This document shows positions 8,314 to 11,341 of a stretch of DNA of 64,000 nt, piece after piece (the first letter of the stretch is position 1; the number at the start of each line of letters is the position of its first letter). Source of the stretch: Streptomyces seoulensis (GTDB lineage Bacteria; Actinomycetota; Actinomycetes; Streptomycetales; Streptomycetaceae); the NCBI RefSeq assembly GCF_004328625.1, contig NZ_CP032229.1:4402001-4466000 (forward strand). The letters run 5' to 3'. Under the pieces are notes generated by a model. The model was given only the letters and a program-made list of their open reading frames with translations. It ran no database searches and was not told where the DNA came from. The position numbers and the translations under genes are program-made.

Positions 8314-8524
8314 CGTACGCATTCGGGCGACCGTCCACGACCGCTGCCCCAGGAGGCCCTCCGCGGCCTACTGTTGAGGGGTGCGCCCGCCGTGCCCAGC
8401 CGCGGCCGGTGCATCCCCGTGCCCGACAGCCGGCACGGGGAAGGCTTTCCACCGCCGAGCCGCTGAGGGTCCTCGGGGCCAGGGTCGCGTGGCGTGGGCA
8501 CCGCCGGCTGTGAGAGGGACGGGA

Positions 8525-10744
8525 ATGGAACCGACCGAGAGCGCCGCCCCCGGCTCACGACTGCGCCTGCGCCGCCGCGCGGGCGCGTGGCGGGGGAACC
8601 GGTGGACCGGGCACGGCAAGGACCGCGCGGCACCCGACTCCCGCGCCGACGGCGTCGATCCGCACGCGGCGTTGGTGCTCGCCGCCGACCTCGGGCCGCC
8701 GCTGGGCGGCGGGCGGCGCGCGTGGATACCCACCCTGCCCGCCGCCCTCACCGGAGCGGCCGGGCTCGCCCTCGGCGCCGGGCTCTACGGCGCCTTCAGC
8801 GGCGGCCACGCGCTCTTCCCCGCCGGTACGGCCGGGTGGGCGCTGGCGCTGCTCACCGGCCTCGTCGTCGGCCATCTCGTGATGCTGGGCCGGGCCCGCT
8901 GGAGCGGCGGCACCGCGTCCGGCGCCGCCCTCACCCTGGCCACCCTGCTGCTGTACGGCTGGGTCCCGGCCGGGCTGGTCAGCCTCACCGTCGTCGTCCT
9001 TGTCGGCGCCGCCCGGCGCAACTGCCGCCGCGAGGGTCTGCTGCACGGCGCGGTGGACATCCTCGCCATCGGCGCCGGCGCCCTGGTCCTCGGCGCCTTC
9101 GGCCGGGTCGGTACCGTCGAGGAGCCCTGGCGGCCCGCCAGTTGGGGACTCGGCACCGTCCCCGAGGTGATGCTCGCGGCGGGCGCCTACCTCGTCGTCG
9201 GCCGGGGACTGCTCTGGTACCTGCACGCCCCGCGCGCGGGCGGGGTGCCCACCATCGCCCGGACCGCGCTGGTCCGGCAGGGCCTGGTCGCCGTCGCCCT
9301 GCTCGGCATCGCGCCGCTGGTGTGCGTGGTCGCCGACGCCCGGCCGGCGCTGCTGCCGCTGTTCGTCATCCCGCTGATCGCCCTGGACTCCACCCTGTGG
9401 ATGGCGCGGGCCCGTGCGGAGGAGCAGTTGCGCGACCCGCTCACCGGGCTGCCCAACCGGCAGTGGCTGCTGGAGCGGATCTGGACCGCGCTGGACGACG
9501 CCGAACGCATCGGCGCGCGCTCGGCGTTGATGCTGATCGACCTCGACCGCTTCCGGTCGGTCAACGACACCCTGGGCCATCTCGCCGGTGACCGGCTGCT
9601 GTTGCAGATCGCCGACCGGCTGAAGAAGGCCCTGCCGGACGGGGCGGAGGCCGCGCGCCTCGGCGGGGACGAGTTCGCCGTCTTACTGCCGGTGGCCGAC
9701 TCCACCACGTCGGCCACCCGCATCGCGCGCGCACTGGTCACCGCGCTCGGCTCACCGCTCGACCTGGACGGACTCACGCTCGTGCTGGAGGCCAGCGCGG
9801 GTGTCGCCGTCTTCCCCGACCACGCGCTGGACGCCGAGGGCATGCTGCGCCGCGCGGACGTGGCGATGTACCAGGCCAAGCGGGACCGCTCCGGCGTGGA
9901 GGCGTACGAGTCCAAGCGGGACTCCAACACCCCCGACCGGCTCGCCCTGCTGGGCGATCTGCGCCGGGCGCTGGACGCGCGCGAGGTCCAGCTGCACTAC
10001 CAGCCCAAGGTCCGCTTCGACGGCCAGGTGGCCGGCCTGGAGGCCCTGGTGCGCTGGGTGCACCCGGAGCGGGGCAAGGTCCCGCCGGACGAGTTCATCG
10101 CGATAGCCGAGTCCTCCGGGCTGATGCCGCACCTCACCGAGTACGTGCTGGAGACCGCCCTCGCGCAGGTCGCCCGCTGGCGCGAGCAGGGGCTCCGGGT
10201 GCCGGTGGCGGTGAACGTCTCCCCCCGCGACGTGCACACCCCCGGCTTCGCCGGCTCCGTCGCCGCCCGGCTGGCCCGGCACGGGGTCCCGGCGGGGGCG
10301 CTCCAGCTGGAGATCACCGAGCACGTGTTGCTGGAGGACCCGCAGCGGGCCGCCGACACCCTGGCCGCGCTCGCCGGACACGGCGTGAAGATGTCCCTGG
10401 ACGACTTCGGCACCGGCTACTCGTCCCTGGTCCACCTGCGGCGGCTGCCGGTCAGCGAACTGAAGATCGACCGTTCCTTCGTGGCCCGGCTCGCGGTGGA
10501 CGCCGAGGACGCGGCGATCGTGCGCTGCACGGTCGACCTCGCGCACTCGCTCGGCCTGGTGGTCGTCGCCGAGGGCGTGGAGGACGACGAGACCTGGGAA
10601 CACCTGCGCGACCTGCGCTGTGACGCCGTACAGGGGTGGCTGGTGGCCGCCGCGATGCCGCCCGAGGAGACCACGGCCTGGCTCCAGGCCCGCGGCTCCC
10701 GTGGCTGGCAGCGCCCCCGCGCGGCGCTCCCGGCGGGGGAGTAG
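8525..10744 (+). CDS. rmdB: Membrane GGDEF-EAL protein, RmdB-like c-di-GMP enzyme
   Basis: 739 residues from the ATG at 8525 (GAGAGGGACGGG upstream). A short charged N-terminus is followed by about six hydrophobic segments (residues ~70-290), then a GGDEF domain with DPLTGLPNR near residue 304 and an intact GGDEF at ~380, then an EAL domain with EALVRW at ~506, LEITEH, DDFGTGYSSL, LKIDRSF and AEGVED. Both halves keep their catalytic residues. No RxxD inhibitory site precedes GGDEF (the place reads PDGA). The gene sits where S. coelicolor has SCO5495, which I recall as RmdB, a c-di-GMP phosphodiesterase acting in development; assignment rests on position and architecture. Confidence 0.88.
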   Translation: MEPTESAAPGSRLRLRRRAGAWRGNRWTGHGKDRAAPDSRADGVDPHAALVLAADLGPPLGGGRRAWIPTLPAALTGAAGLALGAGLYGAFSGGHALFPAGTAGWALALLTGLVVGHLVMLGRARWSGGTASGAALTLATLLLYGWVPAGLVSLTVVVLVGAARRNCRREGLLHGAVDILAIGAGALVLGAFGRVGTVEEPWRPASWGLGTVPEVMLAAGAYLVVGRGLLWYLHAPRAGGVPTIARTALVRQGLVAVALLGIAPLVCVVADARPALLPLFVIPLIALDSTLWMARARAEEQLRDPLTGLPNRQWLLERIWTALDDAERIGARSALMLIDLDRFRSVNDTLGHLAGDRLLLQIADRLKKALPDGAEAARLGGDEFAVLLPVADSTTSATRIARALVTALGSPLDLDGLTLVLEASAGVAVFPDHALDAEGMLRRADVAMYQAKRDRSGVEAYESKRDSNTPDRLALLGDLRRALDAREVQLHYQPKVRFDGQVAGLEALVRWVHPERGKVPPDEFIAIAESSGLMPHLTEYVLETALAQVARWREQGLRVPVAVNVSPRDVHTPGFAGSVAARLARHGVPAGALQLEITEHVLLEDPQRAADTLAALAGHGVKMSLDDFGTGYSSLVHLRRLPVSELKIDRSFVARLAVDAEDAAIVRCTVDLAHSLGLVVVAEGVEDDETWEHLRDLRCDAVQGWLVAAAMPPEETTAWLQARGSRGWQRPRAALPAGE

Positions 10745-10796
10745 CCCCCGGCTCCGGCCGGGGGAACGTTTCCCCTGACAGGCGCCCCGGGGAAAC
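10745..10796. terminator. Two hairpins after rmdB, possibly bidirectional
   Basis: CCCCCGGC-TCCG-GCCGGGGG (10745-10764) is a perfect 8-bp stem directly after the rmdB stop. A second inverted repeat, GTTTCCCC (10768-10775) with GGGGAAAC (10789-10796), follows. They would end rmdB transcription, and read on the minus strand they lie just beyond the 3' end of the RNA candidate at 10832-11007. Confidence 0.55.
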
Positions 10797-10831
10797 CGTT
10801 TAACGGTGACGGGCCCACGCCCCATAGGATT

Positions 10832-11007
10832 GGGGCTAGTCGTCCCCTTTCCGTCTGTCACGCGACGCCCGGCACGCACGCTCGCCGCGTTGCCGAATCG
10901 CCCACGTGGCTCCGCCACGAGGGCGCTCCGGCGCCTTGCGATCGCACGCACCGGACGCCGCGTGACCCGCCCTTCGGGCGGACGACGGAAAGAGGACGAC
11001 CAGCCCC
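10832..11007 (-). ncRNA. Candidate structured RNA: ~176-nt rod with a side hairpin, read on the minus strand
   Basis: Between rmdB and gatC lies a large inverted repeat. 10832-10855 pairs with 10984-11007 (24 bp), 10857-10864 with 10959-10966 (8 bp), and 10865-10885 with 10938-10958 (21 bp). The tip folds as CGCCC/GGGCG and GTGGC/GCCAC (10899-10925), and the right arm has an extra hairpin at 10967-10981 (CCGCCC-TTC-GGGCGG). On the plus strand the arms have eight A-C mismatches and no G-T. On the minus strand those same eight become G-U wobble pairs, leaving one true mismatch in 53 positions. This one-sided pattern suggests selection for a minus-strand RNA. No clear minus-strand promoter was found. 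A plus-strand TAGGAT (10825-10830) would instead start a gatC leader here, so direction is open. Confidence 0.5.
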
Positions 11008-11044
11008 GGCCCAACCACACTCACTCACCCCAGAGGATCGCTGC

Positions 11045-11341
11045 ATGCCTGGCATCACGCGCGAGGAGGTCGCCCACCTCGCCCGGCTGGCGCGTCTGGA
11101 GCTGAAGCCCGAAGAGCTCGACCACTTCGCCGGCCAGCTCGACGACATCATCGGCGCGGTCGCCCGCGTCAGCGAGGTCGCCGACCAAGACGTACCGCCG
11201 ACCTCGCACCCGCTCCCGCTGACGAACGTCATGCGGGCGGACGAGGTCCGTCCCTCGCTCACCCCCGCGCAGGCGCTCTCCGGCGCCCCCGCCCAGGAGC
11301 AGCAGCGTTTCAAGGTGCCGCAGATCCTGGGGGAGGACTAA
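11045..11341 (+). CDS. gatC: Aspartyl/glutamyl-tRNA amidotransferase subunit C
   Basis: 98 residues, the normal size for GatC, beginning [20 protein letters not shown] with the typical N-terminal helix. The central [17 protein letters not shown] and the late [12 protein letters not shown] are family features. GatC holds GatA and GatB together in the amidotransferase that converts Glu-tRNA(Gln) to Gln-tRNA(Gln), and Asp-tRNA(Asn) where needed. AGAGGA lies upstream of the ATG. gatA starts six bases after the stop, so the genes form an operon whose leader passes through the inverted repeat region if the promoter lies beyond it. Confidence 0.97.

Follow-up and report, generated by a model that had tools for sequence, protein, structure and literature searches.

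The closest described counterparts of the repeat discussed here are ERIC, Correia/NEMIS and RUP, which, in the available portions of the papers that treat them (PMC2229807, PMC3049150), are small elements of 100-200 bp with terminal inverted repeats and TA at their ends. According to the same portions, their transcripts are predicted to form long stem-loops, they are thought to be mobilised by insertion sequences (IS) with similar ends, and the effect of ERIC depends on its orientation. REPINs, as far as the available part of their description goes, are palindromic, dispersed and non-autonomous (PMC3116915). Short transcripts at palindromes have been described in S. coelicolor, and the accessible part of that paper does not name the repeat family reported here (PMC4681348). 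A literature search by title and opening of the abstract, with subscription journals mostly outside it, found no description of the family. The window analysed here is a stretch of 64,000 nucleotides from Streptomyces seoulensis (NZ_CP032229.1, positions 4,402,001 to 4,466,000), which holds a large inverted repeat just upstream of gatC. With a probability of roughly 0.85, we take this repeat to be a non-autonomous miniature transposable element (MITE) that is mobilised in trans by an IS5-family transposase, with a fold of one strand that is selected on the element.

The inverted repeat lies at 10832-11007, where the first-pass annotation had placed it, and all of its plus-strand mismatches are A-C. 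Folds of both strands, the dispersed copies and the empty sites described below identify the whole of it as one copy of a MITE-like element whose sense strand is the minus strand. This strand folds at -149.4 kcal/mol (z -14.1) with 67 Watson-Crick and 9 G-U pairs, against -114.8 kcal/mol (z -7.6) for the plus strand, and on neither strand did any of 200 shuffles fold equally well; the large repeat with minus-strand wobbles is therefore real. DNA folding parameters give the same asymmetry (-83.6 versus -69.2), so that energy does not favour RNA over single-stranded DNA (ssDNA). Eight G-U pairs fall in the long stem, as had been counted, although this stem has 48 pairs and not 53, and the ninth lies further in (10928/10896). 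A side hairpin on the 5' arm (10967-10981, minus strand; columns 33-48 of alignment A1), common to one branch of the family, and a variable, capped tip hairpin (10899-10925, minus strand) are both present in the minus fold as described. On the sense strand the copy opens with a decayed 5' terminal inverted repeat at 10984-11003, CTGG then TCGTCCTCTTTCCGTC, recognised by eye against fuller ends such as that of L016, and closes with a 3' terminal inverted repeat at 10836-10855, read on the plus strand as CTAG then TCGTCCCCTTTCCGTC; the outer limits of both are presumptive. Between them is a conserved core of about 100 nt (10862-10961, minus strand), which alignments A1 and A2 find in common among copies with unlike ends and which model R1 matches exactly here. 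Within the core, the fold and the alignment place two tandem U-G/G-U wobble steps, with a 5' arm at 10945-10950 and a 3' arm at 10873-10878 (both minus strand). On the minus strand, a terminator-like site at 10998-11011, where the element has its 5' edge, overlaps the element stem and is probably a by-product of it.

The element is flanked on the left by the gene of a GGDEF-EAL protein (8381-10744, plus strand; PF00990 and PF00563), for which rmdB is the earlier reader's name, and on the right by gatC (11045-11341, plus strand; PF02686), to which it is antisense. A probable -10 box of gatCAB, TAGGAT, was recognised by eye at 10825-10830, and a conserved gatC leader occupies 11008-11044 (both plus strand). 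When the 30 best-matching gatC loci of 101 genus genomes were read, TAGGAT was present in all 30. The site is empty in 26 of these loci, where the leader follows directly after the box, within a few bases; it is filled in three (S. seoulensis, G084 and G061), where the element stands between the -10 box and the leader; and in one (G007, L190) there is a relic with only a piece of an element end. In this relic, GGGACGACTAGCCCC, the element has seemingly been lost, and the short G runs at its edges would fit a slipped-strand deletion. Further filled sites came from the genus search, in G020 and G005 (L010 and L013), and L164 has the same flank. With the element between the -10 box and the leader, the gatCAB message should start inside the element, judging by the position of the box. 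Insertion thus explains why the gatCAB operon has an odd leader. Upstream of TAGGAT, many of the loci L173-L202 have a motif like AAACCGTTT(A/C)ACGG, which may be a -35 region or an operator.

The repeat forms a dispersed family. In S. seoulensis itself, a covariance model of the core has 37 matches, and BLAST with the 176-nt sequence finds 17 places, window copy included. At family level the core model matched 75 of 101 genomes, from 12 of the 17 genera; a genus search with a 311-base query matched 93 of 101 genomes, an upper figure, as this query includes flanking DNA and some matches are perhaps to the flank only. An exact 20-mer of the core occurs in at least 118 stretches of public genomes, and among the 80 matches listed 77 are from Streptomycetaceae (Streptomyces, Wenjunlia and Actinacidiphila), the remaining three being from Nocardioides, a Micrococcales MAG and Rhodopirellula, the last of which looks like chance. 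The core copies outside Streptomycetaceae, in Nocardioides baculatus (L055) and the Micrococcales MAG (L124), lie in differing surroundings. The element is also found on plasmids, with 34 records made up of 31 from Streptomyces, 2 from Streptantibioticus and 1 from Embleya. No phage record matched by blastn, a result that gives no support to a phage origin. A pattern scan of viral contigs left 0 of 120 loci, among the matches listed, that passed the fold filter, a filter insensitive enough to pass only 5 of 30 genome loci. As the repeat is common in the genus, annotators of streptomycete genomes could mark it.

Most of the elements are about 160-190 bp long and consist of terminal inverted repeats around the core of about 100 nt. 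What the copies have in common is the core, while their terminal repeats fall into many sequence types. In nine pairs of elements, core identity of 93% or more goes with end identity of 60% or less, most sharply in L015 and L021 (core 98%, ends 44%). Counts of ends and of folding energies are based on loci L009-L134, of which 105 of 126 were delimited and 96 were 140-195 nt long, with L135-L172 left out; the 96 elements include near-identical copies, the Micrococcales MAG copy and a few badly delimited elements. A TA-type end is found on both sides in 41 of them (40 without the misparsed L029), where the TA is part of the end pattern and no independent proof of target duplication, and 11 have an identical TNA triplet (TGA, TAA, TCA or TTA) on both sides. 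The other 44, the window copy among them, are unclassified by end pattern. Terminal inverted repeats with target duplication are thus found for the family, and the duplication is unreadable in the window copy. Called stop codons of neighbouring genes coincide with 44 element ends (40 TAG and 4 TGA, counted by hand over 112 copies with flanks), so that the sites often overlap stops. Several cores (L062, L075, L077, L098, L115, L141, L142, L159 and L165) carry in their tips a further palindromic repeat of roughly 40-50 nt with the form TGGGGGTCCCCC...CGAAGCCGAGAG...TGGGGGAGG, so that one repeat is nested in another. Shortened derivatives are present in S. seoulensis as L208, L217 and L228, with both ends still in L208 (42 bp) and L228 (87 bp).

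Some IS5-family insertion sequences have ends like those of the element. An IS of about 862 bp in S. seoulensis (L222) has at least 18 terminal nucleotides at one end that are identical to those of copies in the same genome, and its other end differs from them at 2 of 13 positions. It has a match to PF13340 at 5262079, and reading of the translation suggests a transposase split over two frames. When 30 loci of PF13340, an IS5-family transposase, were scanned for ends, nine had ends of the TAG... kind like those of the element, L248 had another kind, and the rest had no convincing ends. For the window copy's own ends, which are decayed, no IS with such ends was found. At 5377028-5379440 of the S. 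seoulensis genome (G000:C1; L231, L243 and L040), an IS5-family element of about 890 bp, whose 16-nt ends match perfectly, is present twice in opposite orientations, and one of the two abuts a MITE copy.

The one-sided wobble is a trait of the whole family. In the 37 aligned sense strands of A1, RNAalifold predicts 73 pairs, and 97.6% of the cells are paired, a share that falls to 32-48% on sliding one side; 43 of the 73 pairs have changes on both sides, a number reached in 0 of 500 shuffles. The force of these counts is limited by the fact that the structure was predicted from the same alignment on which it was scored and that copies within a genome are non-independent. The sense strands hold 286 G-T and 10 A-C cells, so that the mismatch asymmetry of the window copy is real and stronger family-wide; the chance of 1 in 256 that had been attached to it in the first-pass annotation is an invalid probability, because the wobbles are inherited within the family and not independent. 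Dropping pairs with more than 10 G-T rows leaves 48 G-T against 9 A-C cells, in 22 against 8 columns. At columns 29/164 there are 12 rows with C-G, 12 with U-A, 11 with U-G and none with C-A. The two tandem wobble steps include fixed pairs: all 37 rows have GU at 66/144 and UG at 69/141, where invariance of the 5' arm is partly by choice, since 18 of the 37 rows were found by an exact 20-mer of that arm; the 3' arm is unselected. In helix 5, which is made up of the inner stem and tip, 12 of 13 pairs are changed on both sides, and the five aligned copies from the gatC locus keep most of the helix, with paired changes. Any terminal inverted repeat would show pairing in its outer stem, and compensatory change can be mimicked by template switching in quasi-palindromes. 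In 96 of 96 elements of the first set the sense strand is the better-folding of the two, by a median of 26.5 kcal/mol, as it is in 25 of 25 elements from other classes, by a median of 13.5, while among 300 simulated decayed hairpins the strand named as sense was the better one in 57%. A folded single strand thus appears to be under selection. A direct-repeat DNA-binding site in place of pairing was rejected on a subfamily in S. seoulensis that has a one-base insertion in each arm, C against G, which by eye keeps the pair and not a shared site. A peptide-coding core was also rejected, as tip lengths vary freely and not in threes.

The copies are also oriented with respect to replication. Among the best-scoring copies listed for 17 genomes in which dnaA lies well inside the chromosome, 179 point toward dnaA (5' to 3') and 84 point away (p 4.7e-9). 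The IS5 transposase genes of the same 17 genomes, counted over the matches listed on main contigs, are divided 75:67 (p 0.56), and the difference between element and transposase orientation has a Fisher p of 0.0036. The element count includes insertions common to related genomes, and it draws on the own-genome BLAST and phylum model matches for S. seoulensis and on matches to the 311-base query for G049, with none listed for G080. An earlier count relative to the contig centre gave 97:50 among the copies listed in 11 genomes, and the reference was changed to dnaA because dnaA is off-centre in G012 and G007, both of which are outside the 179:84. With these two added, the copies listed number 206 against 110, and the majority is toward dnaA in 16 of 19 genomes, those without the bias being G066 (23:27), G394 (1:4) and G012 (24:26). 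In G460, 18 listed copies of equal score (68.2 bits) already lean 14:4 by hand count, a lean that insertion bias accounts for no less well than later loss. The direction of neighbouring genes is unlikely to be the cause, since among 112 copies with flanks, with genes called by GC3 only and counted by hand, tandem gene contexts were same-way in 25 and opposite in 26; six of the 26 are one gatC insertion, without which the ratio is 25:20. Stop codons are fused to the left end in 24 cases and to the right end in 20 (also counted by hand over the 112 copies). A terminator or 3'-end stabiliser with a preferred direction was rejected on these two comparisons. Copies in the favoured orientation have the weaker-folding strand as the lagging-strand template. 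This suggests formation of the sense hairpin at forks, with a cost to the cell, although a bias at insertion could also account for it.

Searches within Actinomycetota gave matches to the core model in 16 of 296 genomes and to a loose pattern of the internal loop in 40 of 396, many of the single matches being plainly chance. The pattern reversed, as a control, had at most one match per strand in any genome listed, against at least three for the true pattern in ten genomes outside the genus, from four families. From these deep relatives, 40 multi-copy or suggestive loci were examined, of which 27 were delimited by terminal repeats and 25 were long enough for scoring. Their elements keep GCAAGGCG and AACGCNGC around a variable hairpin, and many have very different ends, for example CTAGTGCACC. 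It is possible, with the odds somewhat against it, that the family belongs to a phylum-wide mobile module, a one-strand fold with the internal loop GCAAGGCG..GG / AACGCNGC closed by variable hairpins, which would have been fitted repeatedly with the ends of different IS5-type transposons. Such a module would be a structured nucleic-acid parasite of transposases, with an orientation preference set by replication, and, if real, a new class of structured mobile element whose identity is its fold and not its ends. Whereas the definition of a MITE commonly rests on its ends, this family has changing ends and a constant core, which is constrained on one strand and present in several classes of one phylum. 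Two questions are made testable, namely what use the folded strand is to a parasite of transposases, and why copies point to the origin and IS5 transposase genes do not.

The family has the features by which MITEs are recognised, that is, many dispersed copies, terminal repeats with duplication, ends in common with a resident IS and an empty site in relatives. In the mechanism we favour, an IS5-family DDE transposase from a resident IS would recognise the terminal repeats in trans and insert the element at TA or TNA targets, often at stop codons. The sense strand of the conserved core would form a long hairpin in which the internal loop and the tandem wobble pairs are fixed, and this one-strand fold would be kept by selection on the element and not on the gatC locus. 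RNA is our first choice for the form in which the folded strand acts, at about even odds, with ssDNA as a less probable second. The same fold as ssDNA is likely to be costly at the replication fork, which would explain why copies mostly avoid placing the strong-folding strand on the lagging-strand template. The gatC copy would have inserted in antisense orientation, with the -10 box on one side and the leader on the other, in an ancestor shared by a few species. The gatCAB message would then be expected to carry an additional hairpin at its 5' end, where any function is putative at most.

Two rival explanations concern the gatC locus itself. It is very improbable that the hairpin of the minus strand constitutes an RNA gene specific to this locus and antisense to gatC, which was the earlier reader's proposal. 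The proposal has the strong fold and the right kind of wobbles at the locus, and a helix kept by paired changes among the five gatC-locus copies, and to this extent it was right that the fold belongs to one strand and that its pairing is maintained. What it does not fit is the preset test of presence, since the repeat is absent from 26 of the 30 gatC loci read, or the 37 model matches in the genome, and it was set aside on the dispersed copies and empty sites. No match in the window attains the gathering score of an Rfam family, and at E values up to 10 over 10700-11060 there are four weak matches, none of them to 6S RNA; the likeness drawn to 6S, and with it a 6S or other known RNA, was therefore rejected. 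The hairpins on the rmdB side, which had been suggested as the 3' end of such an RNA, belong to the flank and were not observed beside the other copies in the genome. A promoter scan of 10700-11120 on both strands found no promoter-like site, on the minus strand or elsewhere, but it used the sigma-70 consensus only and missed the likely gatC promoter as well, so it says little. It is somewhat easier to imagine, if still unlikely, that gatCAB has taken over the gatC copy as a cis-regulatory hairpin in its leader, given that the message should begin inside it and that the five aligned orthologous copies keep most of the helix, with a sixth (L164) having the same flank. Against recruitment, the distribution over the gatC loci is patchy, the message would have the plus-strand sequence with its A-C mismatches, and several outer pairs of L013 are broken or misaligned in A1.

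The remaining rivals concern what the fold is for. The selected form may be ssDNA, with the sense strand folding during replication or transposition and being recognised as a hairpin, while the ends are also used by IS5 transposases. Hairpin recognition in single-stranded DNA is known from REP or IS200-like systems. An orientation bias relative to replication and none relative to genes would be natural here, as would the same strand asymmetry in the DNA fold, and the neutral orientation in tandem gene contexts means that read-through transcription seems not to matter. However, in the favoured orientation the sense strand belongs to the leading-strand template and not to the lagging-strand template, where single-strand exposure is longest, and the ends and flanks fit DDE transposases; we consider ssDNA as the selected form possible but doubtful. 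Alternatively, no fold may be selected at all, the palindromes being kept symmetric by template switching together with a strand-biased mutation, which on the sense strand could be from C to T. At the gatC locus, clusters of multi-base changes that recur as mirror images in the two arms, seen by eye, resemble the product of template switching. Template switching should nevertheless erase tandem wobble steps, yet two of their pairs, at 66/144 and 69/141, stand in every row of A1, and elements of other actinobacterial classes, whose arms are unlike, have the same internal-loop motif, which makes this explanation improbable.

Taken as a mobilised element with a selected one-strand fold, the Streptomyces repeat resembles ERIC, Correia/NEMIS and RUP, as the available portions of their descriptions present them, in its small size, terminal inverted repeats, TA ends, long stem-loop and IS with similar ends. 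It is set apart from them, by description and not by sequence, in having one core with many unlike ends, two types of flank (TA and TNA), fixed wobbles on one strand, a bias toward dnaA and a presence in several classes of one phylum. With IS5-family insertion sequences of Streptomyces that bear PF13340 it has in common the kind of ends seen in nine of 30 loci, and copies in S. seoulensis match a resident IS over at least 18 nt at one end; unlike them, it carries no transposase, and their genes are without its orientation bias. REPINs are mobilised by RAYT transposases. The Streptomyces element is palindromic, dispersed and non-autonomous, as REPINs are in the part of their description available, and differs from them in having ends that resemble those of DDE-type IS5 elements. 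The family is thus of the bacterial MITE kind, to which it adds exchangeable ends, a one-strand wobble and an orientation relative to replication.
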